DNA of 64,000 bases. Source: Paragyromitra xinjiangensis (lineage: Eukaryota; Ascomycota; Pezizomycetes; Pezizales; Discinaceae). Made by a program: the position numbers and the translations under genes. Of the stretch, positions 9,862-41,042 are shown piece after piece. The stretch covers positions 1,178,001 to 1,242,000 of the forward strand of contig JBCAMK010000018.1 in assembly GCA_038503065.1 (NCBI GenBank), written 5' to 3'. A model generated the notes under the pieces. The model ran no database searches, was not told the origin of the DNA, and saw only the letters and a list, made by a program, of their open reading frames with translations. Position 1 is the stretch's first letter. Every line of letters begins with the position of its first letter.

Positions 9862-9864
9862 TAG

Positions 9865-11801: not shown

Positions 11802-12133
11802 ATGCCTCCTACGAACCCAACTCGCGCAAATAACCAAGAGAACCGATTGCAACTGGCCGCCAGGGATATCGATGTGCACGAACTTGTTCAGAATTTGAGC
11901 GTAAACGACTCCGATAGTACTGTGAAAGGTATGAGAACGCCTAGTAACTATTTTTCAACTTATCTATTATATGTATATAGCTAAATAGATCATCAGCTCT
12001 CACTCGACCAACAGCAGCAGCAATTGAATTACTTGATGATGCTTCTGGGAGCTCGAGCGGGATGATGGAGCTATATCTTCTGCAGGCTGCCGATGGGGAT
12101 GCTGTAGTTGTATTTACAAGGTTACAAACTTGA
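11802..12133 (+). CDS. Small protein of the MMxxYL-EDxVVVF family, member A
   Basis: Exons 11802-11928 and 11997-12133 give 87 residues. The 68 nt intron is phase 1 (GTATGA...CAG). Exon 1 is polar, Asn/Gln/Asp-rich and has no signal peptide or membrane segment. Exon 2 begins ALTRP and carries GMMELYLLQAADGDAVVVF followed by TRLQT and the stop. The same C-terminal motif occurs in the genes at 19988, 27580 and 40700, and the last five residues match member C (TKYQT). I do not recognise the family. A small cytosolic or nuclear protein with a short structured C-terminus is likely. The gene lies alone between repeats. Confidence 0.7.
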
Positions 12134-12805
12134 AGGTGGATGATTTTAAGGGAGTAACTAAGCTTCAAAACTAGACCAAGGTAAATATTCACATGATATG
12201 GGAAGTTCTCTCACTTTGTTAATGAGATTATAGGGCCGAAACGTTTGTGGAGCGCTAGTTATTGTGGTCGTAGCTATTCGGGCCGGTGGGAGAGTTGTGT
12301 TATGTGGTGTTGGTGATTCTATCCACCGCACCATTAGTCTCTGGGCTCTTCTAACTTCCGCCAAACATTTAGCTAGTTGGTGTGGAGAGATTTAAGTTAC
12401 TTTAGTTTGTTGCATAATCCGGTTAACTTCTAGTCCCCTTCTGAGAGAAATAAACCTCCCTTTCGAGCTCTTAGATTCTTAGCTTCTTTTTGTAGGATAT
12501 ATCCAAAGAGGGCTGCTGGTATCCTCTCATGTACAAAAGTTTCCACATATTGACGACGAATTCTTGGCCTCGCACCACTAACGAAACCTGATGGAAGTAA
12601 GAGTTAGTGGTTGAACCCTCTGTGTAATTCTTTTCTGTGCACTTTCGTTCTTGTGCTCGGAGTAAAGATAGCTATAGCTTAAATTTTGGGAATGGTTCAC
12701 GACGAATTTGAGGAGCGGGAAAGCCAGCAAAACTACTCCTACTATTTCACCCTCTCGGCAAGTGACCGCTTGAAGCGATGCTCATATCGCACCTACTATA
12801 GTGCG

Positions 12806-13224
12806 GGAATCGATAAACGTGTGCCTATATGTGACCTATAATGCAACCGAGACTTGAGCATTTTTGAGGGTTGGGCATGATGTTGTCATCATACTGGGGT
12901 TCAGATGGTTCAGATTGTATTCTGGTTAGGCTTAAAAAGGTCTCACAGACCGGAAAACCCCATAGCACCCCCTGAACTGGGTGGAGCTAGGCTTCAAAAT
13001 GTTGCATTTTTTTCTTTTTTTGTGGGTGCTCCCACTGCATCACCACCCAAAACCAAACTTTTCAAAGTCCAATTACACCATGAAAATATCTCCATTTTCG
13101 AAAAGCTCCCTATAGGTATTGTGTTTATCATATAGTGAATCACTGTATAGGATTGTTTTCTTAAAAACCTGCCCTATTTAGCTATAATAGATCGTTCTGA
13201 AAGAGGTACACGTTTATCGATTCC
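12806..13224. repeat. Perfect 17 bp inverted repeat bounding a possible TIR element
   Basis: GGAATCGATAAACGTGT at 12806-12822 is repeated exactly in inverse orientation at 13208-13224, about 385 bp apart. Similarity extends weakly outward (CTAT and GGC blocks). The interior has no coding sequence that I recognise. A non-autonomous DNA element is the simplest reading; I found no clear target duplication. Confidence 0.55.
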
Positions 13225-16200
13225 GCCGCCATAGGTTTGGCTCCCCGAGGAATGGGATGTATGAAGTGGGATCAAGTTGTTATAATTACTTTTAATTCGT
13301 CTTACTTTAAACACCGCATACGCAGGGCTAGAAGTAAGGGCGAAACAGTCGTTCAGGCCGTTAAGGCACACGCATCTTGAAATCGCAACTATTACCTGAC
13401 CCCATTAGATCCCACCAGAGCACGCGGCTGAGAACGCGGGCCGACTGTTATGCAGGCCCAGCAAAGCCGATTGGACAGGAGATGCAACTCCGTACTAAAG
13501 ATATATCTACAAGGATTCACGCAATCACTTTTTTTCGGTTTCATATCAAGACCATATGGGTCTTAGGGTACTACGACCTATGAACTCTCCAGCCAATCTC
13601 CAGCTGCGATTTTGAAACTCTGACGAGATTGAGTTTAGCGTCGCCATGACTTCTGGTAGACCCCAACTGCAGGTTGGGAAGAACGCACGTCCACACCGTA
13701 AATTATAGTCGCCTAAACTTGTCCAATAACTAGCTAAGCTAGCACGATTCAGATACGGTCGAGACTGGATGTTTGGCGGGCAGGGATGTTTGGCGTAGGA
13801 ACTAAACTTCACTACCCCTATCCGTTATACACCCCGGGCCCTATCCGCTATATACCGAACTATAGCTCTGTAACGCAAGGCATACATGGCTAGCCGCTTA
13901 GGTGTGCTCTCGCCTAATTTAACTCAGGGACCGGCCCACTTACTATTCGCTGAATCTCCAATCCAGCTAGCCACAAGGTTTCTTCGAAAAAAAGAAGGGG
14001 TGGCATAAACCGCCAGCCCGAGTCGATAGCTTCGCCTCAGAGTTAGCATCTACAGTTGCACCCAGCCTCGTGCCCATACACACAGCCCTACGGTACGCAG
14101 CAAGCTGCGCAGTGGGGCTGGGCACGAGACTAAGTTGCACCTCGTTATGCCGGACACCCAGAATGTAGTAGATCTCGTACGGGATAGCAAGTTTTCCTAA
14201 AGAATCTGAGACAGCAAATTTATTTTGCAGCAGAAAAATGTTTTGGCTAGGGTATTTTGTACGGCACAGCAAGGGGTTTGGCATACTGAGTTCCGGCATA
14301 GCGAGGTGCGACTGTAGTAACCTAGGATGCAGTGGTATTTGGAAATTGGGTCTTATCACTCTGTTAGCAGCGCTATAGGTAGGCTCGGGAGGTGGAAAGA
14401 ACATATCAGGTAAGGGAAAAACCTACTACTCCTCACCCTTCCTCACAGTCTCCTAGTGGTGGATCGAATAGTTCGGTGCTCTATTCAAGAATTGATGCCA
14501 GGACCTACTACTGTAGAAACCTATTCGCTATGGAGTAATTTTGAGTCAGTATGAGTAAATTAGTGAAAGGAACATAAACTGGGTGCTTAGACGAGCTGAG
14601 ACATCATCAGGTGTCACTTGCTTGTGAATAGCTACTTCCAAATTGAGATGCTAAATTTCCTAATCTAGCTCGATGTAGCTATCCCGTTGTTGCGGTTTTA
14701 GCTTGTTTATATACTTTGAAGATGCCTTCTCCCTAACTATTGAAATCATGATACCGTTCCCTAATATTAATATATCATGAATCCTATTCGATTGTATTAC
14801 AATATCCCAAGGCTGCTAACTAGAACCGTCCGAAATGTTAGTACGCGAGTAAGATAAAATCGATCAATTTTTGCTGTCGTTCGCCACCTGGAAAACATAC
14901 ATTTGTAAATAAGGTTTCAGTTCGCCCGGGATAGGCTGTCTAACAATCATATTTCTTAAACTGATATCTATTAGTATTTACTGCATGGGAAATACCTAGG
15001 TTGGAGGTGAAACCCTTGCATATAAAGTGAGACTGGAGTTCCCGATCCACCCGAGCTATAGCCACACATAGTCAGACAGAAGCAATAGGTTATACCATTA
15101 ATTACTTGTTAACGTCATGGCAGGAATTTTTAGCAATGAAGTTGGACATACTAATCATGATGCACCCAATTTAAAATCCGATCCTTGCGGGTAACGCGTT
15201 GTGTCGTATGGTTAAAGTTTGAGCTGCACGTGTATGCGTAGTACCCATGTCAGGTTGAACCGCCGGCCTGGTGCCAAGATGACTCAGCATCTCGTGGAAC
15301 CTCAACTATCACTCAACTAGTGCCTAGCGTGTAACAAAGAGTGTGTGATGAGAAGTGCGTTGAGCGTTGAGCATTACCTAGTCTACTACTGTGGGTGGGC
15401 TTGGTTTAGCTCGGTGAGTAATAACTAGTAGCCCACGGTTTGGCTTGAGTGTAGGGTGAAAACCCAGAGATACTAGGATACTATAGCTAAGAAGTGGATT
15501 TGATAGGATATCCTGCTATTGTATGATGTAGAGAAACGGTGTTGTAAGGTGCACCTTACCGGCCGACTTGCTATCGCAGTTGGTATTCGGTCGTTAAATT
15601 GGAAGAATGTAGACATTCTGAAATCTTTATAATCAGGAATTTGATTTGAAACTGGTCATGGTGCTTGCGAGGCCTAGGCCTAGGGAGCTTGCGAAGACCA
15701 GGGATGCTTATCTAGGTAAGAAGTTTTGGGTGTAGCAATCAGTTTCATTTGAAAACAAGATCGCCGAACTGTATGCTTATCCCCTGGATTGCAATCGGGT
15801 GTTTCCACGTGCACGGACTTTAGTCAGCGAATTTGAAGCATCTCGGCTTAGCATATTCAGCACATCGATATATCCCCCAGCAAATTCTTGTGTCTTACAG
15901 CCGGGAATTCATAAACAGAGGCTTAGCAAGGCCTATTATCTCTGCTACAATTGGCAAGTTTAGGTTACAGACCTCTAGAAGGAACCGAGCAACTAAAGCT
16001 CAAAATATTGAATTTCGGTGCGTAAGGAGTTACGATCTAGGAGATAGCGCGAGTAGGCTTATATAGAGGACGCCCACATTGAGAGTCTACTGTAGTCATA
16101 GTCTAATGTAGCTACCTGGCTATAGGATGCTAAGGGTGTTAGTGAGCGGCAATTTCCCTGTGGAAGATACCTAGTACCTATAGTCGTACTGAATCTAGAT

Positions 16201-16670
16201 AATCCACCGAAATTCGCTCGATATAGCAAATTATTCGCTACAGCAAGTGATTCGCTATGTGAAGATTCGCTATAGAAAGGCCGGTACGGCTGTATTTTCT
16301 TCGTTTGATTTGAACTAGGATCAAAACCTCTTAGTTTGCTAACGTGAGGGGTGGGTCTACATTTTGTTTGAGCTTGTACTTGGGTCATGGGTGTGCAGAT
16401 GGAATATCGGGATTTCTCACTCTGCGGGGAAAAATTGTGAGACCTATTCCATCTCCATATACTTGACTTGAGTGTGAAATATATACCCTTCTGGATCCCA
16501 TAGAGCAGTATCCTAGGTGCAGGCTAAACTTAATTACACATTTTGCAGGTAATTGCAAGGTTGCTAAGGTTGTTTTCAGGTAGGATTGTCACACGGCTAT
16601 CTCGGGGGGAAAACAAGCCGCGCAAGCGATTTTTTGTATCATATTTACATATTCGATATTGTACTCGTGC
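13225..16670. other. Gene-poor stretch
   Basis: Apart from the dispersed repeat at 14066-14132 I see no gene. From 16210 to 16280 the phrase ATTCGCTAT(A/G) recurs four times within 70 bp, a degenerate local repeat. The minus-strand frame at 16059-16388 overlaps this repeat and is unlikely to be a gene. CTAG- and TA-rich composition suggests decayed transposon DNA. Confidence 0.35.
14066..14132 (+). repeat. Dispersed short inverted-repeat element, copy 1
   Basis: The core TACGCAGCAAGCTGCG is itself a hairpin (GCAGC/GCTGC) and is followed by GGGGCTGGGCACGAGACTA. An imperfect inverse of the end, CCTCGTGCCC, lies at the left. The same unit occurs at 18160-18204 (inverted) and 22413-22460, with a decayed copy at 53241-53290. 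Confidence 0.7.
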
Positions 16671-16885
16671 TCTACCATAAGTACCTGAAAACGGTGTCGG
16701 TGGTTCGTTATTAGTATGCCACCATAGCCTAAGGGCTGGATGTGTGTATGAATTATCAATCAATCAATCAATACCTGAAAACGGAGGTGGTATGGAACTT
16801 TTTGCTAACTAAACTGTGAAGCGTTGCCGCGGGGCGAACCAAAAGCTGTTGCCACCAAAGGACATTTTCAGGTACTTATGGTAGA
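16671..16885. mobile_element. Small TIR element carrying a LINE fragment
   Basis: TCTACCATAAGTACCTGAAAA at 16671 is exactly inverted at 16865-16885. Removing the 77 bp LINE fragment and one 13 bp target repeat leaves an element of about 125 bp. TA occurs two bases inside each end, so the true termini may be CCATAAG flanked by TA. Confidence 0.75.
16695..16771 (+). mobile_element. 5'-truncated LINE insertion (77 bp)
   Basis: The 3' end reads CCATAGCCTAAGGGCTGGATG and then a (ATCA)n tail. It matches the 3' end of the full-length LINE at 39064-39112, which reads CCATAGCTTTAGGGCTGGATG before an (ATCT)n tail. The fragment is bounded by a 13 bp direct repeat, TACCTGAAAACGG, at 16682-16694 and 16772-16784, the expected target-site duplication. 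It lies within the left terminal repeat of the 16671-16885 element. Confidence 0.85.
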
Positions 16886-18159
16886 CCACGCGCAAGTAGC
16901 TATAAGAGTTGTGTTTCGTGAAGCTGAGCCATTCGATTATAGGGTTTTATAAGCACAAAGTTATCTAAATCTCCTTGTTAGTAGGCTTTACTTGAGAGGG
17001 GTTTTCGAGGTTAACTCTATATATTTTAGGTATATATTGGGATGAGATCAAATCCCCGAAATGTATGGCAACGAGAAACAACACTTTGCGACCCTGACCA
17101 TTAGTACAGAAACAATCATCCAACGTTAATATAGTAGGAAATAAGCCACTAAAAAGTAGCGATGTGGAGTCGTCCTTTGCGTCAGTTTCCCTCCCTTTGG
17201 GATGCAACTTTGAAAACGCGTTACATCTTAGAAGTTAATCTCACCCCAAGTATTCGCGATGCATTGACTTGATTTGTAGGTTGTAAATTCCCGTTAGATC
17301 TTGGTGGTTTTGTGTTTTCTACCCAGGAAACGGCAGGAGAATAGGGCCAGACAAGTGAATTGATAAGACACGGTTTCCGCGGAATCCGATTGCATGGCGC
17401 TCATCAAGAAAGAATTTTCCTTTGTCAAGGGTTTTTGGTTGGCTGGAAGATTAAGGGTTTGAAAGGGAGTAAAGCAAAAAGACTAAGATGAAGGTATACG
17501 TGCTGTTAGGTACGGCACCGGTGTCCCGTCACTGAGTCAATAAATGGCTGTACGATTCTGCAAGTTCACGGCAATGACATTTATGGGGTACAAGGAGATC
17601 AGAAAATGACATGTCTTGTTTTCTAACTAAGTAAAGGAAAGACCTTTGCTGGCTATTGTGATACCCCCGGGTTCATTACGTATACCATATTTGGTCGGGT
17701 TTCGGCCACACCGCTACGTACCCCGAGAAACACCGGCATGCATGGCGCTTCCGGCTCCGACTGATATGTAGTTCTCAGGTCATCCGATTTTATAATCATC
17801 TGCCAGACGAAATAGGTGAAGTCCCCCTGATACGATCTATACGTATACGAGAAAACTGCTCGTAGGAAAAATCTAGATGAGATTGCATGTCAAGATCCGG
17901 CACATAGAAGATTTTAGCGCTCAGTGTGAACCTAATAGAGACTACGGTAGTTGAGTTCATCCTAACTATTCGTGGGCTCGATTTTTGAGTTTTATCCCCA
18001 CGATCGATGATTGGGTGAGAATTTCTGTTCGGGGGTCATTCGAAAGGGCTCAGTGTATACGTAACCATAGCAGAGTGGGGTATATGCACGAAAAAATAAT
18101 TTGCCGGCAAATTGATCAAGTAGCACACTTGTTCGAACGTTCCAGGGCTTGGTCCCGTC

Positions 18160-18204
18160 TAGTCTCGTGCCCAGCCCCACTGCGCAGCTTGCTGCGTACC
18201 GTAG
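18160..18204 (-). repeat. Dispersed short inverted-repeat element, copy 2 (inverted)
   Basis: Reads TAGTCTCGTGCCCAGCCCC and then the hairpin core CGCAGCTTGCTGCGTA, the reverse complement of the copy at 14086-14132, nearly base for base. It is embedded between GGTCCCGTC and GGGACGGGAAC, which themselves resemble an inverted pair. Confidence 0.7.
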
Positions 18205-18805
18205 AGCAGCCATAGGCAGTAGGGACGGGAACTAACAACCTAGTCCTGTACATGTGTAAATTAATGTGGCAGGGTACCCATGCTTCGCTCAAATCATGTA
18301 AGCTGTTACGCTCAAAACCTTAGAGGTGACAAATGGTAAAGTTGGTCGCTAATTTTACAATCGGAAATTACCTAAGATCTTCAGGTTACAAGGACCCGGC
18401 CAAATCAGTTATCGTACATTTGAAATAAAAGTATGGAAAACTCTTCTAATCAACCATTGGCACCAATGTGCCCTTACGTAGCTACAGTGTAGTCAGCAAA
18501 CGACTGAAAAGCCTTGGATTCCTCCATGGAGCTTGAATTAATCGTTGCGTATTAACCTTGGATACATATAATATTTTGGTTTCGTAGCAATCGATTGACT
18601 GGTGTTTTATTTTTTCGTACTAAGCAAAGCCCCATCACTTTAGCTAGGTATCCTATAAGTTTGGGATTGATCTTCACAGATCTATCGTTTGGAGTGCGAC
18701 CTGCACACAAGCTTAAGCCGGCAAATTTAGTGCAGATAGCTATGGTATGATCCATTTACCTTTAGTTTGGCGATGTATAGGGTTTAAGTCTCTACAAGGT
18801 GTAGA

Positions 18806-18982
18806 AATGCATCAATGAGCCTAGCTCCCATACAAACCTAATTGTAAAAGGCACAAAGTGATGCATTTACAGGGCACGTTAGTTGTAAATGCATCATGGG
18901 GTGCATTTCCCGACGGCTATGCCTTTCCCGACGACATCCCCGACGACATTACCCTTGAATGATGCCTTTCTCGACGACTTAC
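18806..18982. repeat. GATGC-module repeat related to 7513-8064
   Basis: Contains AAATGCATCA near 18806, TGATGCATTTAC near 18860 and its inverse GTAAATGCATCA near 18886. GACGACAT and TGCCTTTCCCGAC repeats follow. The same GTAAATGCATCA word occurs near 7651. It appears to be a partial or rearranged copy of the same repeat family. Confidence 0.45.
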
Positions 18983-19869
18983 CACCTAGTCATACCACAG
19001 GAGTCAAGGCATCTCCACTGAAAATTCTGCATTTTGCCGGTTGTTGTAGTTTTAAACTTCCAGTTATACACCAAAGTAAAAACTGTGGGCCTTTCTAGTG
19101 GTAGTGGAAAAGAGCTACCCGGGTTATATTTGTTTACGCTCTAGCGATAAAAGTTTCTTAGCTAGTAGGCGCACGTGCGTGTGTGTTGATTAATTAACCT
19201 CTCCTTACCTATCATATAACTCAGCACCATGATCTGGAAGAGTTTTCTGTGGCCAACTTAAAAAAGTCTCACAATTCATGTAGCGCGGAATGAAGTAGTA
19301 AATTAATGCAGCACGAAACTGTCGAGTGATTATTCATGTAATTATAATACATATTGTGGTTAACGTTGCATGTTCTCAAATATTTTTTCACTAAGTAGGT
19401 TCAGTCATGCTCAGAGTGCTAGCAGTTGTGGGTTACTTTGCAACTTAAATTTGACAACACTTCTGTTGACTAAATTTTAAGATCTCTAGCACTAGATACA
19501 CGGGGGGGTTTTATGAAGATATGGTCGGTTTCAGGTTTCAAAAGTCTGGTAAGGCTCGTGCGGTGAGTGATGGAGTTCTTGCATGAAGTTTAGCTCAGAA
19601 GATATGGCGCAGTTCGATCGTCACATATACAAGTGACACGGGAAGTCTGTACAAACTTGGTAGAAAAGCGCGCTGTTACGGCCGAAGGGATCAAATGGTA
19701 TGATCGCCTCAGGAGATTATAGCGCCACTGGCCCCGATCACAAGAGAAAGGGAAGGGTCGGATTGTTGATATGTACCGGTGTAGATACCATGGCCATAAA
19801 GAGGTCGGAATGGCAGATAATACCAAGCCTATGGGAGCGCTCATGGTCGAGACGTAGATTTAGATAAGC

Positions 19870-19893
19870 TATAAAGCCTAGTGAAATTCCCTA
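19870..19893 (+). promoter_or_regulatory. TATA box and TTCCCTA element of small gene B
   Basis: TATAAAG at 19870 and TTCCCTA at 19887 lie 118 and 101 bp before the ATG at 19988. The arrangement matches members A and D. Confidence 0.55.
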
Positions 19894-19987
19894 GCGTGTA
19901 CCTCAGAGTTCTCAAAATTCTGGGAATTACTATTGAAGACACTTCATCGTACCCTACTTTATTTACGTGATACTACCGTTTTCACCA

Positions 19988-20272
19988 ATGTCTACAACAC
20001 CTGCGCGCAATCAGCAAAATCTCGGTCCAGGAGGCCCGAAATACCCACCAGATCTACCGCAAACTCGATCATCCCTTGAAACTATAGAAAATCTTTCGGC
20101 ACTCGGCAAGTTTGTCCAACCAGCTCTTTCTACGGGTATCACGCGTACGGAATCACTTGCTATCACTCGAGGTGTGATGATGGAGAGATATCTTGGGCAA
20201 AGCGCAGATGAAGACTCAGTTGTCGTTTTCGGAAGATCCCAAATTTCAAGGCTCGAGTTCCCGCAGGAATAG
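19988..20272 (+). CDS. Small protein of the MMxxYL-EDxVVVF family, member B
   Basis: A single open frame of 94 residues from ATG at 19988. The N-terminus is Pro/Gln/Asn-rich (starts MSTTPARNQQN, like MSAPRQQNQ of member C). The middle carries GITRT and AITRG, matching the TR motif of A and C. The C-terminus holds GVMMERYLGQSADEDSVVVF and then GRSQ with a 13-residue tail. Unlike the other three members I find no intron at the expected site. The site where C has its acceptor reads TTG-CTATCACTCGA here, so it may be read through. No signal peptide. Function unknown. Confidence 0.68.
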   Translation: MSTTPARNQQNLGPGGPKYPPDLPQTRSSLETIENLSALGKFVQPALSTGITRTESLAITRGVMMERYLGQSADEDSVVVFGRSQISRLEFPQE

Positions 20273-22130
20273 TTTGGCTTCCTTAATGGTGACTAAGAGC
20301 CTCTCTCCTTCGTTTAGAAATCAAATGTCCAAGAAGTTTCACTTACACTTGAGCTCAGTTGCCATGCCTTGGGCGCACTATATACGACCTAGCTTGATAA
20401 TGCGGGAATACACGAGGATAAACCAAGTACGACTGATGGCTTCCTTTAGTTCTTTGACATGTGATTTATGTATTTTCTTTTCATCTTTCTTGGTTCCTGT
20501 GTCTAGTTACCTTGGTTTAGTATTCAATTTATTAGTTTATGTACCGTGGTTTAAACTCAAGAGTAAGTGCCGAACAGTCGAACCTGTCACCTAATCGGAA
20601 GAGTATCCGATAAGGCATGTTTCCGTATCTAAATGATTCCAAGCTATGGCTCCGAGGATCACGCTCGAGTCTCATTTTCGATCATGATTTATTAGCTACG
20701 TATAATGCCCAGATTCGAACAGCCTAAAGATAGCTTAATCTTTGTATATATATAGGCGACAAAGTTTCTAGACTGCTGATTACATATATATTCCGCATTC
20801 GCCCCTCACCTAATAGCCACTACTAATATTGTAATCACATTTAACCTTGATACGCATGCAGGAACCTTATGGTGTCGTGTATGCTGATACCGGTGGAACG
20901 TGTGGCAGGGTTTTGGTTTAGTCGCGCGTGCCTTTATTCAGCTACAGGGTGGGTTCTCATTTACCTAACACTGGGGCTTGGTAAGGGGGGTTTTCGCCAT
21001 TTTAAATTATTTACTGTTGCCCAATTACAAATCCACTGACAGGGTTACGGTATATACTCAATGAACCCACCACCATCATCCACCTACCTGCAAGCTGGCC
21101 CACTATGTATTCCAAGTTTGTCATATATATCAGAGTACACGCGTATACTAGGAAAACCTATTGTGATTCCGCTCAGAAATAATTCCAAGTCGATTGGAAT
21201 ATGATCCTGGTAGAGATTTAATAAAATTGTTTTCGGGTAATTAAGGATTCTCAATAATACTAGGAATTAATATAAAAATTCAAGGGGACTAACCTGAGAA
21301 ATAGGACTAGAATTTTTTAATGCATCCGAATCCCAAATTCACCACCGGAAAATTTTACCACATCATGCGATCGAACTCAAGATCACACAATAGAACACCG
21401 TATGTGTATAGGTGAAATTATCCCCTTAGTACTAGTTAGTACGAAGCTGTAAGTTTAGTTCCCAAAACGATCACTTCGAAGGTTCTTTGCAAACCTTCTA
21501 ATTCGCATTTGGTGAGTATATTTCAACCAAGACTATGAGCGATTAAGCTTTAAGTTACGCGTTCATTACTTATAAAATGTATATGATTGTGATACCATAC
21601 ACATGCGAAGCGGGCCGTGCTATCCACGCGAACCAGTACCAGGCCGCCTTCGCCTGCTCGGTCAATGAAAACCGGCGCCTTCCTAGCCCTGCGCTGCGAT
21701 GTTGCGACTACCTGCCTCCTGTAGAATGCATATCTGTGATACTGTTCTTTGCGTATTTTTTTGTCGCGGGGTAAATTCATCGAGACTCAGTGGGCTCAAG
21801 AGCACTTCCGACGAAGTGATTTTACTCGTTAGAGCAGCCACATCCGAGTTGACATTATAGTTAGTGCAGCCGCCCATACTAGCTGGCATAACTTTAAGGT
21901 CGGCCACCAGTACTACTTATCTCCATTGCGCTGATGTGGCTGGTCAACGCGCCGAGAGGCAATATTTTGCCGAAGGAAACCTTATGATATATTTGTAGTT
22001 TTATACCTTTCATGTAGGCTCGTTCCCATCTCCTACTGCCTGCAACTACTACGCACCGTAGGGGCTGGTGTACTTACCCTTCCGAATTGTATGAAGAGTC
22101 TGTTCGGAGTTTCCTCGGAGCTTCAAATCT
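20273..22130. other. Gene-poor stretch, nothing recognised
   Basis: The 133-residue frame at 20193-20594 overlaps member B in another phase and is not supported. No other feature recognised. Confidence 0.35.
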
Positions 22131-22326
22131 TCGGAAGTTTTTCGGGGGTAATTGGTACTTAATTTTACTAGTGGGTTACATACAATTGCTTGTACCCTAG
22201 GGGGGGGGGGCTAATATGGTAGGCGAAAAAAGGCCCGGGCTTCGAGGTTTTCGGAGGTTTTCGGGGGTAATTTGATACTTAAATTTGTGAGGAAATCCCA
22301 TAGAAATACTTGTACCTCCGGAGGGG
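22131..22326. repeat. Two tandem diverged copies of a ~75 bp unit, period ~120 bp
   Basis: TCGGAAGTTTTTCGGGGGTA at 22131 and TCGGAGGTTTTCGGGGGTAA at 22251 start two units. Each continues with TGATACTTAA-like and A(T/A)ACTTGTACC blocks. A run of eleven or more G follows the first unit (about 22200). Confidence 0.6.
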
Positions 22327-22412
22327 AGAACCCTCCCCGAGCAAACGAAACCCCCGGAGAGCCTCTGGCTTATTTCGGGCCTTTTTAGGACCCGAGCTTT
22401 TAGTAAACCAGA

Positions 22413-22460
22413 CCCTACGGTACGCAGCAAGCTGCGTGCATGGGGCTGGGCACGAGACTA
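22413..22460 (+). repeat. Dispersed short inverted-repeat element, copy 3
   Basis: CCCTACGGTACGCAGCAAGC through GGGGCTGGGCACGAGACTA, same orientation as copy 1. The only notable difference is GTGCAT for GCGCAG in the centre. Confidence 0.7.
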
Positions 22461-22878
22461 CCTTTCATGATACTTCTATATTGCGTTGTGGCTCACTCCT
22501 TTGAGGGACATCTAATTTATAATTGAGCCGGTCTGGTAATCACCGCGCGCCCCCAGACTGCAGCTAGCAAGTGAAAATATGATATATGAGTAGGAGTGGA
22601 TATCGATGTAAAAGGTGCTTGAGTGAATTTAGTATGGTTTGAGGTATTAGGCTATCATAAATTAAATTATAGAAAGGTGTATAGCCTGACATGATGGTTC
22701 TGCTTTGGATACGAACTTATAGGTTTAGGGCTTCATAGACTCGTACTCGCTCTCATTGAAATAGTAAATGTACTTGATTGATTGGCTGATTGTTCATTAA
22801 GTACATCCAACCAACTGCATTATGGTACTACATGTATAATTATAATAGGTGTGCTTTTTTGGAGTAACTTATGCACTA

Positions 22879-22898
22879 TAGCTAGCTAGCTAGCTAGC
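22879..22898. repeat. (AGCT)n microsatellite
   Basis: About five units of TAGC/AGCT. A similar shorter run lies near 31787-31802. Confidence 0.8.
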
Positions 22899-22919
22899 CC
22901 TACGGCACAGAGATTTTGG

Positions 22920-25275: not shown

Positions 25276-25291
25276 CCCTAACCCTAACCCT
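25276..25291. repeat. Short interstitial telomere-like run
   Basis: CCCTAACCCTAACCCT: two full units and most of a third. This is the complement of TTAGGG, the usual telomere repeat of filamentous ascomycetes. At this length chance is possible. Confidence 0.5.
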
Positions 25292-25361
25292 CAGATATCG
25301 TAAAACGCCCCAAATAGATGACTTTGAGAGTGAAAAAAGTGCAAACATATTTATAAATCTC

Positions 25362-27478: not shown

Positions 27479-27500
27479 TATAAGTAGAACAGCTTCCTCT
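27479..27500 (+). promoter_or_regulatory. TATA box of small gene C
   Basis: TATAAG at 27479, with TTCCTCT at 27494 in place of TTCCCTA, 101 bp before the ATG. Confidence 0.5.
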
Positions 27501-27579
27501 CCGTGTGAATCTCAAAACTATCACTCAAACGGTTCAATTCTATTCTGCTCCCTACCTCCCTCTACTACTATTACCACTA

Positions 27580-27837
27580 ATGTCTGCCCCACGCCAACAA
27601 AACCAACCAAGGCCAAAAGCCTCACAAGAGGCTTCCAAGCCTCAAGCTCCACCTGGCTCCGCCCAGACTTCTTCAAGTACTACCACCCAATAAGAATCTC
27701 CAGCCTGAATGCTAATATAGTCACAAGCTATCACTCGAAAGGATCCCAATACCCCGAAGAGCCCGATGATGGAAAAGTACCTTAAGCAAACACCAACAGA
27801 GGATCCAGTAGTAGTGTTTACTAAGTATCAGACCTGA
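27580..27837 (+). CDS. Small protein of the MMxxYL-EDxVVVF family, member C
   Basis: Exons 27580-27676 and 27728-27837 give 68 residues. The 51 nt intron (GTACTA, branch GCTAAT, acceptor CAAG) is phase 1, the same phase and position as in A and D. Exon 1 is Pro/Gln/Ser-rich. Exon 2 begins with an ITR motif and carries SPMMEKYLKQTPTEDPVVVF, ending TKYQT. It is the shortest member and may show the minimal protein. No signal peptide or membrane segment. Function unknown. Confidence 0.72.
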
Positions 27838-30800: not shown

Positions 30801-32080
30801 TTCTTAGCGAGGAATGAGACATGGGAAAGAAAAGCCAATTGTGTTCTAGGGTGCCATGCACAAGATAGGGTGGCTTGACCCTTTTCAGTTCCAGGTTACG
30901 TATGTATCTACCTCTAAAACTCTGCCGAGGATCTGCCGCAATTTATAGAACAGACACATATACCCAACGTTGGCGAGAGCTGTATGTTTCCATGGTTACG
31001 CAAAGTTTCTTCGCTACCCCTCAGTTTTCACGTGCTTTTTTCCGACTTACAATCTTGCTTTGTTTCAGATTCCAATGTATAACAACGGAAAGAGGCGATC
31101 CTTGGACTCGCATATGCAACTCAAGAATACCCATACCTGGTACTGGGGCACTTTGGGTGTCGGATCTCCTTCTTTCTTTGGTTGTATCTAAGTTCGGAAG
31201 GTATCTTGCTATAGTGCCTACATCTAAGAGTTATGTAAGAAAATATAATGATTACGTTACCATGTATCATTCATTATAGCGGAGAATTTTTCTATACGCG
31301 TGTTTGGAGCTGTGTTGATCGAAGGGGGGCCTAACCAAAGCCAGCATAACAGACATGGCAGCTAGAAAAGTAACAGGAATCTAGAAAGTCCGGAACATAT
31401 TCAGGCTATCAGAGTGGTAGGGCGCTCATTCTCTCGCTCGCATTTTTGACTTCGTTCTTATTTTGACGGATGGCTATGGTTATACAAATGACAGGGCACG
31501 TCAGCTCGCATGACAAGTATGGGACGAGTTTTTGGGGGTGCATCATTCTCGGGAGCCCGTATAAAATTGGGAGGCTTAAGCCCCATCGTTTAAAGGCCAC
31601 GTGTGATATCTTACTTGCATCGCTCCGCAGAATATGATATGGTCTCATAGTTCCTAGTATGAGACCCTATATACCGGACCACGAAAGACCGGGGTTCTTA
31701 ACCTATCTTTTAGCGAATAATCATGGATGTAATCAATAAGGTTATGACACTTTTACCTTCTAACAGAAGATCCATAAGATCCAAAGCCGCTAGCTAGCTA
31801 GCTGTGTATGCTGGAGAATCACTAGATTACAAAAAGTTCTATCCGCGGACTCCTGGTGCTTAGTCGTATGACGAGAAAATTATGTTTGGAGCATCAGCCA
31901 AGTCGCTAAGATCGGGATGAAGTGGTAATTCTATGCTCAACTAAGCCGAATCGAATAGCTGCATATCTCAGTCGTAAGCGCCTTTTACTGCTAGGTCCCA
32001 GTCTTATAACGCATACGCTTGACGTCTGTTTTGGATCAACCCATGACATCAAAATTGGGAGGTCATCCTTCGGGTTCCTA
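27838..32080. other. Gene-poor stretch, nothing recognised
   Basis: Longest open frame is 134 residues (30875-31279, plus) without family resemblance and in a region of mixed short frames on both strands; I do not call it. No shared repeat recognised apart from a short (AGCT)n run near 31790. Confidence 0.35.
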
Positions 32081-32826
32081 CAGTCACTCATGGGGTGACG
32101 GCGAATCCCGTCTGATGGCGAACAGGGGTTTTTGACTAATAAATGACCGAGAAAATTGACAGCTTAGCAAATCCGTACTGAAATATACAAGAAACAACAC
32201 CACGGTTAGGACAAATTTTCGAAAATAAATCAACAACCAACAGTCAGAACAAGAAGCAGAGCACATATTCGGAATCAGCAGCCTTTTCTCTATCAGTATA
32301 CCCCTCTGTGAAAATCCAACTCACCTTTCACAGTTTTTGGGTGTTTCTACTCCATCTTTTGGGTGGCACCCCACCAAAATTGGCCAATTCTCCCCCAATT
32401 TTCGGGTTTTTCAGCACTTACACAACAACCATAAGGCACAACAAAGAGAAAATTTAGGAGAAGCTGCAGCTGATACAGACAGAGATAACCAGCTACTTTG
32501 TTTTGACAAAACTGATAAAATACAGCTTCAACTTAGGAAAATCTCGGCGGAAATTTGAAACCTAAGCCACCCAAGGACAACACATCACAAATTTGCCAAG
32601 ACTTCTAGCACCTTCCGGAAGGCACTAGACAGATAATCAAGATAAGACTGATTAGATAAAACCGATCAGATAAGATCAACCAGATAAGACAAGATTACAT
32701 AAAAAATCCCCCCAAGTATATGCCCACAGTCATCAGCTGGGCTGTCGTACTTACTATTTTCTATAGAATACTAAAGAAAGAAATCACAGCCACTGCTATC
32801 ATAAGCCTACTAATCAAAAAGGAAAA

Positions 32827-34971
32827 ATGAACAAAGCAGGAGCATGGGGTAGGACGGTGACAATCAATGGCACCAAGTACGAAGTATTCATGAAATACAC
32901 CGGCGTTTGCCATACAGGATACCCCGGATACACCAGAGCACTGGCAGGACCCGAGTACGGAAATCTACTGGAGCAGGGAACGAAGTGGTTCGTCCCCAGT
33001 GGCATGAGCTTGAGAAGCAAAAAACCAATCCTGGAGGAAATCGAAGAAGAATTCCTGGACAGAACCACATGGGATGAAGAGAATAAAAACGGAGGCAAAA
33101 GAGTGAAAGCAGAGGTGGTCGAAATTCCAGACAACATGGAGGAGAGTGACGGAGAGTCATCCATCACAGAACAGGCAGCCACAGGAATTTACGGAGATGG
33201 AGGAGCGTGGAACGAACTTGCACTGCCAATAAGCAGGGAGTCAAGCCCCCTGAGCAGCCAAGCGTCCAGCACAGAAGACATGGACATCCAGATTGAGAAG
33301 GCAGAGGCCATGATACAAGGGGCAAGTAAGGATGTCCACAGAGAAATCGTCGAGATAGTCAACGAATACCGAAACAATCACAAGGATGAATACAACCCAG
33401 CTGAAATGGATATCACGCAAGACAGCAAGGAGGTCCAATGTAAAGGTAACATAACACCGGAAGAAGACAATGATGCTGACATGATGGAAGTGCAATGGAT
33501 GGAGACTATGAGGGAAGAAGACTGGCATGCACTAACAGCACAAGTCATGGAAGGGTACAAAGCTAAAGGAGGAAATGTGAATGAACAGGTCAATGCAAAG
33601 GAAGCCTTGGCCAAAGCTATTAATGAGGAAAAAGAGTCCAGAAAGGAAAAACGGAAAAGACCAGCAAACGACGTAGGCCTCAAAGCTACACCAGCATCTA
33701 CAACACGTCGCATACTAGCAAACACCAAGAGAGTCATCACCGAAAAAGCGATTACAGGCCTGCTAGCCAGCAAGCATGCAAGCGTGAACCCACCAAAAGG
33801 CAAAGAACGAGAAGCACCCAGAACTCGGACACCACAAAGAGGAGAGCCAGCGGGCAGAGAAATGACAATTGAGCAACGAATGGGAGCAATGGAACGAAGA
33901 ATGGGAACCATGGAGTGGAATGTTAGGGAACTAAAGAAGGAAGTTGAGTATTGGAAAGGGAAATACGAATTCAGTGTACAAGGACACAGGAAGCCCACAA
34001 CTGCAGACAACCGCCCACCCCCTCCTCCAGCTGTCCCACATATCGATTACCGCAAAACAACAGCACCAACAAGACCATACACCGCAGCTACTGGGGCAAA
34101 CAGCGTGCCCTTGAGCTATGCGCAAATGGCCACCCGACACTGCCCAGTTACTGATCATCAGCAATGGCAAACAGTAGCCAACAAGGATAACACCGCCAGG
34201 ATCAAAGCAAGAGAAGAATACACCAGGCGCGCAGTCCAAAGAGAATTGAAGGAAGAAAAAGAGAACGAGGGAGCAGTAGTAATCGACATGGGGGACAAAC
34301 CACTAGCAGGGGTGTCGCTAAGCCAAGAGGTACTAATTCAAAAAGCAGCTGATATGGGAATTGACAAAACTAGCATTCAAAGGGTCAACACAACAGTCAA
34401 CGGTAACCTCAAGGTCATCATCAAGACGGCAAGCGAAACCAAAACAGTAGTCAGCAAGCTAATGGAAAGGGGAGTAAGGTCCCGAACCCTGGAAAGTTGG
34501 GCTGGCATAGTAATCTGCGGATGGAGTGTCAGTGAATGGAAAAACAAGATGCCGGAGCTGGGGCAGCTCATTGAGGAGACATGGGGAGTCAAGCTGATGA
34601 AAGAACCTAGATGGTTAGCTAATGACAGAAGCGAAGGAGCCGGAAAGGACAAACAATCTATTGTCGTACACGTCGCTAAAGCCTCAGACCAAGCAATGAT
34701 CCTGCAGAACAGAAGCTTCCAGATGAAGGACAATGAAGGGTACACCATCAGCAAAGGACAACAAGGTTTCGGCATGTGGATGAGGGAATTTACCAAGAAC
34801 GGAGGAACCAGCAAGGAAATCAAATGCAATCGGTGCACGGAAAAGGGACACATGTGGTGGGCATGCAAAAATTTGAAGAAATGCAGTCACTGCGAAGAAG
34901 GCCACACTGCATGGGAACATGTTACTCGGGGAATAAGAGGAGACACCAACCCGAAACCCACTCGTAAGTAA
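32827..34971 (+). CDS. LINE ORF1, gag-like nucleic-acid-binding protein
   Basis: An intact frame of 714 residues. The N-terminal half is acidic. Residues about 340-365 form a short Met/Glu/Arg-rich coiled-coil-like stretch (EQRMGAMERRMG). Close to the C-terminus are two zinc knuckles: CNRCTEKGHMWWAC (C-x2-C-x4-H-x4-C) and CSHCEEGHTAWEH. ORF1 proteins of this class coat the element RNA and act as chaperones. The stop codon TAA overlaps the ATG of ORF2 in the sequence TAATG. No nonsense codons. Confidence 0.9.
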   Translation: MNKAGAWGRTVTINGTKYEVFMKYTGVCHTGYPGYTRALAGPEYGNLLEQGTKWFVPSGMSLRSKKPILEEIEEEFLDRTTWDEENKNGGKRVKAEVVEIPDNMEESDGESSITEQAATGIYGDGGAWNELALPISRESSPLSSQASSTEDMDIQIEKAEAMIQGASKDVHREIVEIVNEYRNNHKDEYNPAEMDITQDSKEVQCKGNITPEEDNDADMMEVQWMETMREEDWHALTAQVMEGYKAKGGNVNEQVNAKEALAKAINEEKESRKEKRKRPANDVGLKATPASTTRRILANTKRVITEKAITGLLASKHASVNPPKGKEREAPRTRTPQRGEPAGREMTIEQRMGAMERRMGTMEWNVRELKKEVEYWKGKYEFSVQGHRKPTTADNRPPPPPAVPHIDYRKTTAPTRPYTAATGANSVPLSYAQMATRHCPVTDHQQWQTVANKDNTARIKAREEYTRRAVQRELKEEKENEGAVVIDMGDKPLAGVSLSQEVLIQKAADMGIDKTSIQRVNTTVNGNLKVIIKTASETKTVVSKLMERGVRSRTLESWAGIVICGWSVSEWKNKMPELGQLIEETWGVKLMKEPRWLANDRSEGAGKDKQSIVVHVAKASDQAMILQNRSFQMKDNEGYTISKGQQGFGMWMREFTKNGGTSKEIKCNRCTEKGHMWWACKNLKKCSHCEEGHTAWEHVTRGIRGDTNPKPTRK

Positions 34972-37900
34972 TGATGAGTTACAACACACCGGAGAAAAAG
35001 GGCAACAGCAAATGTGTGACGATAATACAACAAAATTGCAATAAATCAACCATAGTCATGCAAAATCTAATGGACATTGGAGGAACAACGGACATTTTAG
35101 CAATACAAGAACCATGGATAGGCGAGAAAAAATGAAAGCGAAAAATTGACAGTGCAGTCGACATAGGAAATGGCCAAATAACCGTGGGACACAGCGGCTA
35201 CGATATAATATTTCAACACGGAGTCAATGGAGGAAAGGCAAGAGTCATGTGGATGATAAGAAAAGATAGCAGGCTTAAATGGACAGTAAGGGACGATTTA
35301 TGGAAACATTGGGACGCAAGTATCCTGGACATGCAATTAACTAATAACAAGATCCTACGGATAGTTAACGTATACAACCAGGATCACAGCGAAGGAGAAG
35401 GATGGTGTATGAAAGACTTCCCTATTAACCTGGGAATAGAAGCAGACCTCATGGTGCTAGATGACTTCAATGCGAAGGGAGCACTATGGGATACAAGAAG
35501 CGAAAGCTTAAGAGAAGAAATGGTTATGAACATAGTGGAAAGAGAAGAGCTAACGTTACTTAATGAAGTAGACTGAGTTACCTGGACGAGAGGTGCCGCC
35601 AAAAGCATCTTGGATCTCACATGGTGTGCGATAAACATGGAACGCCGATGTAATTGGAAGATCGATGAGGAACTGGACTTAGGATCGGATCATGCCACCA
35701 TCCAGATCGAATACCACGAAACGGCAGAACGAGTCAACAACCCATTGGGGAAAAGATGGGACTTAAAGCACGCAGATTGGGAATCAGTCAGAAGAGAGAT
35801 TGAGGAAGCAATAGGGGAGAAATCGGCAGCATGGGCGAAAGCAGTGGAAGATAAAGAGGTGGAAGTTATCGCAGAGCTACTAGAAGTAGTCATCAAGAGA
35901 GGCATGGATAAAGGAATACCGGTAGCAAGGATGACATGGCGAAGCAAAAAATGGTTCGACGAGGAAGTGCGAGCCAAAAGGAAAAGGGTCAGCCAATGCA
36001 GAAGGTGGAAAAAAGGAAGCAGAGGGGGGGCAGAAGAGGACGTCAGCGAGTGGAAAAAGCAAAGAAACGAGCTGTACAGGTTAATCAGAAAGAAAAAGGT
36101 TGAAATGTGGGACACGTTTATCCAAGAAGCCAAAACTCAAAAAGAAGCCTGGACAGTTTGGAGGACGTTAAACCAGCGGATATACACCAAAACACCCACA
36201 ATTCACACGAGAGAAACCACAGCAAGAAGTTTCGAAAATAAAGAAAGGTTGTTCAGAAAACAGCTCTTTCCGGAAGCGCCGGCAAGAGACCAGGAGAGAA
36301 AATTACCTGGGGCAGGGTGCTCAGTACACACCAAGGTATCGGATCCGGAAATAAGAGCAGCAATCGAAAGCCAAGGAAACACGAAAGCGCCAGGACCGGA
36401 TCAAGTACTCAGCAAAGCAATCAAAGAGGCAGGCCTGAAGTTCCATGGCTGGATGCGAGAAGGCATGGATGTGATGTTAAGCAACGGAGAGCACCCGAAG
36501 CGCTGGCGCAAAGCAATCGGAGCTATCATTCCAAAGCCGAACAAGGGGGATTACACAACGCTGCGAAGTTATCGACCAATATCCCTGCTGAACACAATGG
36601 GCAAGATATTGGAAAAGATAGTTGAGACGAGAATCACCAAACACATGGAAGAGAATATGTGTTTTCACAACATGCAATGGGGAGGAAGAAGAGAAAGAGG
36701 TGTTGAAGAGTGTGTCGAATTCACTATGGAGTGGATAAAAAAGAAGCAAGAAAATGGAAAGAAGGTCGTTCTAGTAGCAATGGATGTGGATCAGGCATTC
36801 CCGAATGTTGCAAGAATAAGATTAAGCAATAGAATGAGGGATGCAAGGGTGAACGAGGAGTCAGTGAGATGGATTGAAAGTTTTATGGAGGAAAGACAGG
36901 TTAAGTTGAGGTTTGACGGCAGAGAAGGGAAATGGGAGGACGTCAGTACAGGAATTCCGCAAGGCAGCCCCATATCACCACTGCTGTTCAACACATATAT
37001 TGCCCCCCTCTTGAAACACCTCGAGCAGCATACAGACAAGAACTACCCAGACAACGTGATCACACCAACGTTCATCGACGATGTCACATTAGCGGTAGCA
37101 GCCAATATGTGGGAGGAAGCCATGGAGAGAGCAGAAGAGATGATAGAAGAGGCAGAAAAATGGGCTAGAGAGAATGATGTGAAGTTCGCGGGAGATAAGT
37201 TGGAATGGATTCGTATTGGAAAAGTTAATAATGGGGTAAAAGAAAGATTATGGATGCCAGACGGAGCAAGTAAGGAGGAAAGCATAGTCATGAGATGGCT
37301 GGGGGTATGGATTGATAGAAAGTTGGATTTTAAAGAGCATGTAAATATCAAGATAAAAAAGGTGGAAAGAGTAAGTGGAGGACTTATGAGGTTAGCTAAA
37401 GGGGAGAAAGGATGTGGAGTGGGGAATTTGAGAAGGATGTATATAGCATGCGTGCGGAGTGTGATGGATTATGGATCACGAGTGTGGTGGAAAGAGCAGA
37501 AAGGGCTTGCGGAGAAGATGGATAAGGCGGATCAGAAGGCTATGCGAAAGCTAGCAGGACATCTACGAACAGCCCCAGGAGGCGCAATCCAAGTCGAAAA
37601 CGATCTCATACCGAATGAGATACGCATGCGAGAGAGGCAACGGCGAATAACGATACGAACATTGTACAAAAGCGAAAATCATCCGATGAGGGAAATGGTG
37701 GAAGCAGAAATAGGAATTAAACAAGAAGAAGAAAATTGGCAAGGAGGAAGAAGGAGGAACAGGAAGAAATTGTGCGGAGTTAAGAGGGGAGTGGAGTTAA
37801 TTGATGAAGAAATTGGAGGAAGATGGAAAAAGTTAGAAAGACACAAAGCGATAGAAAAGAAGGAAAGCAAATGGGAAAAGAGAATAAGAGAAGGATTAGT

Positions 37901-38894
37901 TATACGAATAGGAAGAAGCGACGAAGAAGGATTGACAGAGCAGAAAAGAAGAAGGGAAGGAGAGGATGAAGTGGTTATGTACACAGATGGATCGAAGATA
38001 GATGGAAAAGTGGGAGTTGGAGTGTGCAGGCTGGGAAGAGATGGCGGGTTAGAATGGGGAGCTAGTTACGGCATGGGCAATGAGATGGAGATCATGGATG
38101 CAGAAATGGTCGGGATTAAGAAAGCAGTTGAGCAAGGGGTGAAAGAGTGCAGGCGAAAGGAAGTTAGGAAATTGGTGATAAGGATAGATAGTCAGGAAGC
38201 GATGAGAAGGATAGGGAAGAGAGAAAGAGGGCCTGGAGAAATGATGGCGCATAAAGTTAGATGGGAAATGGATGCGGCAAGGACCAACGGCATTACAACT
38301 ACCTTCGAATGGATAAAGGCTCACGTCGGAATAAACGGCAACGAAAAAGCGGACGCCTTAGCAAAGAAAGGCACAAAGCAACCCTGAGATAAAGATAGCT
38401 TTATATCTTTAGCCTATTTGGGAGCCAAAGCAAGAACCGACAGCATTACACAATGGACACAATTCTGGAAAAACCATCCAAGCAAAGGATCAAGATACGA
38501 GCTTGAACCCACACGACAAAAAGTGGTGAGATTTGCAGCACACGAACGAGAAGGCCCAGTAATCCTCAGCAGGCTTAGAACCGAACACATATGGGTCCAT
38601 GAATACGCCAAAAGAATTGGCAAACGAGACGACGATAAATGCGAATGTGGAAAAGGCAAACAGGATGTCAAACACATGTTAACGGAATGCATGTTCAGTT
38701 TGGATGCAAGAGATGAAGCAATAGAAGCGCTAGGAGAAGAGTTGTCGATTGCGCTGCTACTGTATACGAGCGAAGGAGCAAAATGGGGGATTGAGATATG
38801 GAGAGAATTTAAGCGAGGATTGAGAGAAGCGAGAGGGGAAGTCGAGAGAGAAAATGAGGAACTGGGATGGGGTTTTGGAGAGCTGGAGCGTTAA
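34971..38894 (+). pseudogene. LINE ORF2, endonuclease-RT-RNase H polyprotein with three stops
   Basis: One frame of 1,308 codons starting at the ATG that overlaps the ORF1 stop. Endonuclease motifs QQNCNKS and AIQEPWIG are near residues 21-54. The RT core has GIPQGSPISPLLFN and the catalytic FIDD at about residues 701-704. RNase H follows with MYTDGSK at about 1003 and AHVGINGNEKADALAKK near 1115. A C-terminal zinc motif CECGKGKQDVKHMLTEC is near 1224. Three in-frame stops interrupt it, near 35133, at 35574 and at 38385. All are TGA and all could come from one C:G to T:A transition. Their contexts are not the CpA context expected of classical RIP. The frame is otherwise undamaged. Confidence 0.9.
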
Positions 38895-39185
38895 TAAATT
38901 GTTATAAGATGTTATTTTATTTTATATTTAGGTTATGCGGTTGTTTGGATGGTAGTTGTGTTTTTTATTTTGTTTTGGTTTTTGGATTTGTTTTTGTTTT
39001 ATGGTTATTTTATTTTATTTTTTATTTTTATTTTTATTTTTATTTTGTTTTTAGCGTATATCGCCATAGCTTTAGGGCTGGATGCGTAAATGAAAAATCT
39101 ATCTATCTATCTGTACTGAAATATACTGCGCATAACCCCTGTTCGCCATCAGACAGGATTCACCGTCACCGCGTGAACGACTGTA

Positions 39186-40600
39186 ATGTTAAGTTCTATC
39201 ATTTTTTGCTAGATAGGTATTTTGTCTCCCTGGGGGCGGTTTAAGTTGGGCGGTGCTAGAGGGTAGGCTGCACTTCCTTTCTTGGAATGTCCACCTAGCT
39301 GCTTGGTTCCTGAACCCTTTTTAAGCACAATTTGTAGGCTGACTATAAGAAAACCGGAGCCCTGGGCCGCTGGCGCGGCTTCCAAGCCTCCTTTATCGCG
39401 TGGACGATCTAGAAGTTTTTCCAACGGCCCACGATTTGGAATCTGTCTCAGAGATTCTTATATCCCGCCGCGCGCCGTGTGGGTTAGGGTTTGCTGATCA
39501 ACAGCCGGTATACCGGAAAGGGTAATAAAGTCCTTTTTACAAGCAACCCCAGCATTCGGAGTATTGGCCGCTGCGAACCAATATAATTAAATATCAGCGA
39601 AGCCGATACATCTACGCGACCACGGTAAAGATAATTTCCTTGAGCTCGCTTACGATTCTCGCCTCCTGTTTTGACTATTATCACATGTCATCCTGTTTGT
39701 CTGCCTTTTGATTGCCGGCTCTTGTGTGCACGGGCTTGACTGAATATAAGCCTTTCCCCCAGCAACGGGCATTAATATCACCGACAGCCTTCGTTTCAGT
39801 CTAAAACCACTATCAGTGTGTGGATACTTGATTGGATACTAGCTTTTACTTCCCTGGCGCGCCATGCATGTGTACGGAATTGACCGAATTATCAGTGTTC
39901 GTTTATTGAAATCACGTATGAGATTTACCCGAAAGCCGGTGATCGGCGCAGCCGTTGCGTGGGCAAGCGAGGGCAGATATTGGGAAAGGTTAGGCGATAA
40001 GCTACTTGCTCCTTATATCAACTTCATGTCAAGTGATCATGTGTGGATATACTTGATTCCGCGGGACAGGATTAGAAGACAGTTGTCCAGGACCTTATAG
40101 CTACAAAAAGCTCCGATGGCGCGATGTATTCAGTGATAGCAGAGTACACTTCTGCAGTAATCGGCATGGTTTGTGACCAACTACATAGTTATCCTGAGCC
40201 ACCAACAGCATCGTATAGGCCCATGAGACTTGACGCGAAATGCATGATCCCGACATCACAATAAAACATCGAGCTTCTCCACTCAAATACTATCTGGTCT
40301 GTCCCTGGTTGAATAGCTACTCTAAGGTATAGGCACAAGAGCTAGATAAAGTAGTCTCTCAGAACCCTCGTGATAACCATTAACGTGATAATTTATGTAG
40401 AAGGGGGCCACTGACAAGGCAACTATCCTCACCTCGGACCTCGTGATAAGACATCCCACTAGTCTAGCGTGTCAAGCTCACCTTATCAGCGGAAAGCCTT
40501 GGAGTGAAACAGGAGAAGATGGTTGGTGGATATAAGGTAATGATATTCGTATGAGGAGTAGTTGGATTTGATAAGCCACTTCCTCCCCCAAACACAGTTA
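39186..40600. other. Gene-poor stretch, nothing recognised
   Basis: Flank of the transposon nest up to the promoter of member D. Only short frames without family resemblance. Confidence 0.35.
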
Positions 40601-40623
40601 TATAAATACGTAGGACTTCCCTA
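40601..40623 (+). promoter_or_regulatory. TATA box and TTCCCTA element of small gene D
   Basis: TATAAAT at 40601 (within GTTATATAAATACG) and TTCCCTACA at 40617. The ATG follows 99 bp after the TATA. TTCCCTACA is identical to the element of member A. Confidence 0.6.
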
Positions 40624-40699
40624 CAATGAAGTTTAGAAATAGGATTAATAAAATCAACCATCACCAGACGATTACACTACTGCTCTTCCACCTTGTCCA

Positions 40700-41042
40700 A
40701 TGACTATTCCTCATCCTTCTTCTACAAGAGGGCAAAGAACACACGTTGACGAATCACTTTTACGCCAAACAATGGAGCTTTCTCTTGGGCCTATAACATG
40801 TAATACTCCAAAATTTAGTGAGCTTTTCCAGCTCGAGGCACTGCAGGAGTATTGGAGAACTAACGTTTGACTTATTCGCTATAGCCGAAACTGAGACGCC
40901 CAACGCCTCACCGAGTGAGATGATGAGAAGATACATTCAACAGAGTACGAAGGAAGATCCCGTTGTGGTGTTTGCAAGATCGGGGGCTGAGAAATCAGGT
41001 GGTGATGATGAAGAGCCTGAGCAGGTAGTGGGATCTGGATAG
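40700..41042 (+). CDS. Small protein of the MMxxYL-EDxVVVF family, member D
   Basis: Exons 40700-40817 and 40885-41042 give 91 residues. The 67 nt intron has donor GTGAGC, branch ACTAAC 21 nt before the acceptor, and acceptor ATAG, in phase 1 as in A and C. A second donor at 40801 (GTAATA) would also keep frame. Exon 1 has an amphipathic stretch ESLLRQTMELSLG that resembles VHELVQNLSVN of member A. Exon 2 has SEMMRRYIQQSTKEDPVVVF, then ARSG and an acidic tail. No signal peptide. Function unknown. Confidence 0.7.

Follow-up and report, generated by a model that had tools for sequence, protein, structure and literature searches.

A family of small genes with a shared C-terminal module in the ascomycete Paragyromitra xinjiangensis

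Four small genes in the window

The window analysed here is a stretch of 64,000 nucleotides from Paragyromitra xinjiangensis (NCBI GenBank assembly GCA_038503065.1, contig JBCAMK010000018.1, positions 1,178,001 to 1,242,000 of the forward strand), and it contains four tiny genes (g1 to g4) whose predicted proteins carry a similar 20-residue motif in their C-terminal part. We consider it highly probable (about 93%) that these genes belong together as a local cluster within a real, protein-coding family of small genes. The members have in common a C-terminal module, which is under coding constraint, and they are clustered; by prediction, they also have a common exon-intron layout. The family is rapidly diverging, its proteins having only this short conserved tail in common, and it is probably lineage-restricted.

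A previous reading made from the DNA letters without database searches (hereafter the sequence-only reading) had proposed four tiny genes encoding proteins of 68–94 residues. All four were found, with start codons confirmed at window positions 11802 (g1), 19988 (g2), 27580 (g3) and 40700 (g4) and predicted protein lengths of 87, 94, 68 and 91 amino acids, respectively. In g1, exon 1 (11802..11928, plus strand, like all features of these four genes) encodes a polar N-terminus and is followed by a predicted phase-1 intron of 68 nt (11929..11996), for which other acceptors are possible, and by exon 2 (11997..12133), which carries the motif MMELYLLQAADGDAVVVFTR. Gene g2 (19988..20272; 94 amino acids) is read without an intron and carries the motif MMERYLGQSADEDSVVVFGR. 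Exon 1 of g3 (27580..27676) precedes a predicted phase-1 intron of 51 nt with a weak donor, GTACTA (27677..27727), and exon 2 (27728..27837) with the motif MMEKYLKQTPTEDPVVVFTK. Gene g4 consists of exon 1 (40700..40817), a predicted phase-1 intron of 67 nt with a branch-like CTAAC (40818..40884; alternatives are possible), and exon 2 (40885..41042), which carries the motif MMRRYIQQSTKEDPVVVFAR. The phase-1 intron previously described in three genes is predicted in g1, g3 and g4 by models selected from several in-frame routes to the motif (24 for g1 and 11 for g3; for g4, five in-frame models with introns of at most 120 nt, three of them phase 1), and none is needed in g2.

The motif was present in 4/4 window genes, and its full form gave no match in 100 dinucleotide-shuffled windows read in six frames. 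The motif as first described held overall, but positions 12–13 read (E/G)-D and not (E/D)-(D/E/G). At the DNA level, the pattern beginning with ATGATG gave 11 matches, against 5 for the reversed control, and the full motif was found only in the four matches of the window genes.

The four genes also have a similar upstream layout. A TATAAA lies at −115 in g1, with TTCCC 13 bp on (11687..11704), and at −118 in g2, with TTCCC 17 bp on (19870..19891). In g3, TATAAG at −101 is followed by TTCCT 15 bp on (27479..27498), and in g4, TATAAA at −99 (−101 in an alternative reading) by TTCCC 16 bp on (40601..40621). A scripted TATA/TTCC pattern, defined post hoc after inspection of the genes, occurred nine times on the plus strand of the window (the g4 site being counted twice) and three times on the minus strand, compared with a mean of 2.8 per strand in 30 shuffles, which makes chance an unlikely explanation for four occurrences in register before four ATGs. 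The spacing previously reported (TATA 99–118 bp before the ATG, TTCC(C/T) 13–17 bp on) therefore holds for 4/4 window genes, whereas in the other members described below the layout is partial or absent. The flanks were said to be unrelated, and indeed no long homology common to the flanks was detected outside the coding part. Besides, no repeat unit accounting for the spacing of the genes was found, a comparison of the intervals yielding only small repeats in common and no long flank.

Further members in the genome

Protein searches of the genome (48.2 Mb in 22 contigs) were made with g2, g3 and g4 as queries. The g4 query matched C16:1299.5 kb (c16a), C16:1306.1 kb (c16b) and C11:1654.0 kb (the C11 gene), each with an E value between 0.038 and 0.081, and these three were accepted on the strength of the motif alignment, which was convincing when read on the reverse strand. 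A hidden Markov model (HMM) built from the four window genes gave 28.4 bits for c16c, 26.3 for c16b, 24.1 for the C11 gene and 16.4 for c16a (E 1.7e-7 to 0.001), compared with 12.8 bits for the best of 20 shuffles and 8.0 bits for the reversed sequence; the C16 and C11 stretches tested in this way were chosen via the g4 matches, but c16c was not. A seven-sequence HMM (g1–g4, c16a, c16b and the C11 gene), applied to 254 kb of sequence, detected c16c at C16:1328.6 kb (E 3.5e-12), and no additional copy exceeded the threshold within 40 kb on each side of the window. The second unit of c16f scored E 1.7e-5 with this HMM. The c16c query led to c16f (C16:1367.3–1367.6 kb), and a family-consensus search led to c16d (C16:1319.6 kb) and c16e (1355.5 kb). 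The consensus search gave 10 matches at E≤10, all within C16:1.299–1.368 Mb, the window or C11, and it missed g1.

These scores support nine firm members (four in the window, four on C16 and one on C11) and two probable ones on C16, c16d and c16e, which are counted as probable because of their location among the C16 copies, their post-acceptor sequence and the outcome of the consensus search. The member counts are lower bounds, as the searches score the best candidates only. Three further matches were rejected: C3:2860897 (E 4.34) is a chance match at a locus without the motif on either strand, and C15:1158821 (E 6.97) and C3:465446 (E 3.8) are weak protein matches set aside as chance by their scores. 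The claim that all genes lie on the plus strand applies to the window cluster but not to the six C16 copies (−, −, +, −, + and +). The sequence-only reading had looked to related genomes for further copies; these were found in the same genome, on C16 and C11, together with two near-orthologues in a protein database (P0002 and P0004).

An intron before the module was modelled in nine of the 11 genes, and eight of these nine predicted introns are phase 1, with lengths of 47–68 nt; as an in-frame connection to the motif guided the choice of models, their phase does not count as fully independent evidence. Several members have similar sequences directly after the acceptor AG, i.e., CTCTCACTCGA in g1, CTATCACTCGA in g3 and CTACCACTCC in c16e. 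In g2, CTATCACTCGA is found in that frame too, but the AG is lacking and the gene is read through. In c16d, a stop occurs seven codons after the first ATG, and the gene was modelled from the next ATG. In the c16f gene (locus L051, 220–775), the module exon occurs twice within a single frame of 149 amino acids, preceded each time by a predicted phase-1 intron (54 and 52 nt). This double module may reflect duplication of a symmetrical exon, the alternative being two fused decayed genes.

When all 12 module copies are compared, including the weak ones, Q8 is invariant, Y or F occupies position 5, and M or L occupies position 2. At least one D or E occurs at positions 12–13 in 12/12 copies, and both are acidic in 10/12. 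The constancy of these residues is partly built in, because the motif was used to find the copies. A helix followed by an acidic turn and a strand is weakly indicated by residue propensities. Exon 1, on the other hand, consists of 45–89% S, P, Q, N, T, A and G in eight members (the exon boundary being set by comparison in g2 and the C11 gene), none of which has a long hydrophobic stretch in this exon. Mean hydropathy over 15 residues near the N-terminus peaked at values between −0.57 and 0.63 in seven members and at 1.04 in c16b (the set covers the members other than c16d, c16e and c16f). In line with what had been claimed, no signal peptide is apparent by hydropathy alone, without a dedicated predictor, and a role as secreted effectors was rejected for these eight members on this basis. 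In a tree of the 12 module copies, no branch was well supported; the window genes grouped together weakly (82/82), with the second unit of c16f and c16d among them.

Constraint on the module and sequence comparisons

A dN/dS-type comparison between members, as proposed with the sequence-only reading, indicates coding constraint over the motif. In the eight intact members of 11 (20 motif codons, 28 pairs), the mean proportion of synonymous differences (pS) was 0.81 and that of nonsynonymous differences (pN) 0.27, the latter biased low because the copies were recognised via protein similarity. Near-saturated synonymous sites with a kept reading frame are unlike neutral fragments. Besides, the loci of g1 (561 bases), g3 (401) and g4 (551) each match only themselves in the genome at E≤0.001, so these three of the four window loci are single-copy DNA and not pieces of a repeat. 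Both results agree with the proposal that these are selected genes rather than pieces of a transposon.

The same results bear on the possibility that the copies are relics, i.e., decaying, non-functional pieces of one duplicated gene or transposon. The altered motif of c16d, c16e and the first unit of c16f, the early stop in c16d and a g1–g2 interval full of dispersed repeats would fit such decay. The excess of pS over pN in the intact members and the single-copy loci of g1, g3 and g4 speak against it, as does P0004, an open near-orthologue of even the aberrant member c16e, and we regard this explanation as very improbable.

In a protein database of 5.8 billion entries, from which spliced genes are easily missed and in which the number of fungi included is not known, only the window sequence (P0001 and P0003) and the two near-orthologues were found. 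P0002 differs from the C11 gene by five changes in 92 residues, none within the motif. P0004, an open frame, has six differences from c16e in 67 residues: one affects the initial residue, where a GTG was probably taken as the start codon, and at another P0004 shares the L of the family in place of the F of c16e. These differences lead us to infer a different strain or species as the source of P0002 and P0004. No Pfam family was matched at E≤10 by eight of the 11 members (all except c16d, c16e and c16f), the best NCBIfam and PHROGs matches (E 0.12 and 0.27, one member each) were not significant, and the PDB sequences contained no relative, the single match (E 0.28) being a bacterial lipoprotein. 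Literature searches on such a family yielded no paper among the matches listed, and Rfam at gathering scores gave three tRNAs only. The family, described as unrecognised from the DNA letters, remains so in all these protein resources as far as they were searched.

The Pfam and PDB results also concern a truncated glutaredoxin start, considered on account of the helix followed by PVVVFxK, which we took to be like the helix and strand at the start of a glutaredoxin. This resemblance is largely refuted here, as neither the Pfam search with eight members nor the PDB sequence matches included a glutaredoxin and the proteins end ahead of the expected cysteine site; such an origin is scarcely credible.

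Neighbourhood of the genes

The interval between g1 and g2 contains three short dispersed elements of about 440, 185 and 270 bp (12797–13237, 14133–14317 and 15775–16047), with many copies across contigs, which are possibly similar to miniature inverted-repeat transposable elements. The element of about 440 bp occurs in at least 20 other places (40 of 581 candidates scored). When the C18 region was compared with the C16 and C11 regions, the best 90 of 180 matches consisted of the tiny genes, ankyrin, transposase, dispersed repeats and short weak matches, and no co-duplicated partner gene was seen among them.

Another possibility is that of selfish or recognition genes of the spore-killer or allorecognition type, whose products would act against nuclei or partners without them. 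Small, fast-diverging clustered paralogues with a strongly divergent exon 1, neighbouring intact and aberrant copies on C16, and an abundance of dispersed repeats in the g1–g2 interval (the only interval searched) would fit such genes. On the other hand, the purifying constraint on the motif (motif codons only) and the lack of a linked partner gene in the comparison of the C18 region with those of C16 and C11 argue against them, and we find this explanation distinctly unlikely.

Several other features were observed in the window. A long interspersed nuclear element (LINE) lies at 32079–39185, bracketed by a 52-bp inverted repeat (88% complementary). Its ORF1 (32767–34971) is zinc-knuckle-like by eye, with no Pfam match, and its ORF2 (35577–38387), which is bounded by in-frame stops and followed by a T-rich repeat, encodes reverse transcriptase and RNase H. 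A cluster of direct and inverted repeats, about 70–88% alike, occupies 9699–9998 and 7356–7485 and has relatives near the C16 cluster. A heavy-metal P-type ATPase gene (43577–46771) contains an in-frame 15-bp tandem repeat at 46524–46607, and a STAND-type gene on the minus strand (58914–61550) lies in separate open frames, with tetratricopeptide (58914–60458) and NB-ARC/AAA (60759–61550) parts.

Proposed mode of action

Genes this short are easily overlooked by gene finders and homology searches, and the 20-residue motif, the predicted intron position and the clustering are internal evidence that these are real genes. Several observations, however, weigh against the docking-module family proposed below. 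The exact VVVF is kept in only six of the 12 copies, being close in three (MIVF, VVVY and VRVF) and lost in three (c16d, c16e and the first unit of c16f). The secondary structure of the module is read from residue propensities only. Two genes, g2 and the C11 gene, have no modelled intron, and the model of c16e is phase 0 and fails to read into its module. The HMM from the four window genes cannot separate c16d (7.1 bits), c16e and c16f from noise, and scores for c16d and c16e are also weak with the seven-sequence HMM (E 0.097 and 2.3) and the consensus search (0.023 and 2.61). The bias in pN mentioned above points in the same direction.

We propose a mechanism based on an intracellular docking module, for which we see somewhat less than even odds. 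Each protein would be a non-secreted peptide with a disordered N-terminus, encoded by exon 1, and a docking module, encoded by exon 2. In the module, an amphipathic helix (M-M/L-x-x-Y/F-L/I-x-Q) would be followed by a pair of acidic residues and a short strand of hydrophobic residues (VVVF). All paralogues may dock via this module on the same partner inside the cell, with the strand probably extending a beta-sheet, and would differ in output through their variable N-termini. The family would have expanded by local duplication and lost members by decay. In a broader and more speculative form, which we hold to be rather unlikely, a new single-exon module behind a phase-1 intron would have been duplicated with ever-new disordered N-termini, resulting in a toolkit of tiny adaptors for one conserved machine, possibly via SUMO or another beta-strand acceptor, that diverge under an arms race or self-recognition.

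A specific version of the docking proposal is that the acidic-then-VVVF stretch is a SUMO-interacting motif (SIM) and that the peptides are SUMO-dependent adaptors which would recruit or block sumoylated proteins. According to a review (PMC8616421), SIM cores consist of four hydrophobic residues, often with acidic residues flanking either side, the core of PML being VVVI, and the consensus core follows the pattern hXhh or hhXh, with I, V or L as hydrophobic residues. At least one acidic residue is indeed found at positions 12–13 in 12/12 module copies. VVVF, however, ends in F, and three aliphatic residues plus F fall outside the strict core form. Y/F5 and Q8, kept in 12/12 copies, would not be explained by a SIM, and the hydrophobic run is lost in three copies. 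The terminal F and the better-kept helix thus speak against SUMO binding as the whole story, and we judge this version of the docking proposal unlikely.

If the docking proposal is true, the family would offer a clean test of how new proteins originate by keeping one module and replacing the rest, and the module would be a ready bait for its partner.

Comparison with known systems

Lineage-specific families of small genes are already a known kind in fungi. The orphan genes of Zymoseptoria are reportedly without recognisable relatives outside close kin, and the tiny genes described here resemble them in that, in the protein resources searched, no recognisable relatives were found beyond close kin. 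Unlike those orphans, the tiny-gene paralogues have a common exon module and predicted layout, and they occur in two clusters and as one single gene.

Compared with SIM proteins as described in PMC8616421, the module is similar in having acidic residues beside a four-residue hydrophobic run, and it differs in its helix MMxxYLxQ with the constant Q, which is outside the SIM definition, and in the F as last core residue.

The IGY-motif family of Marssonina brunnea (PMC4367982) reportedly comprises 107 secreted members with an N-terminal motif. Compared with that account, the window family has no apparent signal peptide, its motif is C-terminal, and it numbers nine firm and two probable genes. 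Both consist of small proteins with one short conserved motif that have expanded within fungi.

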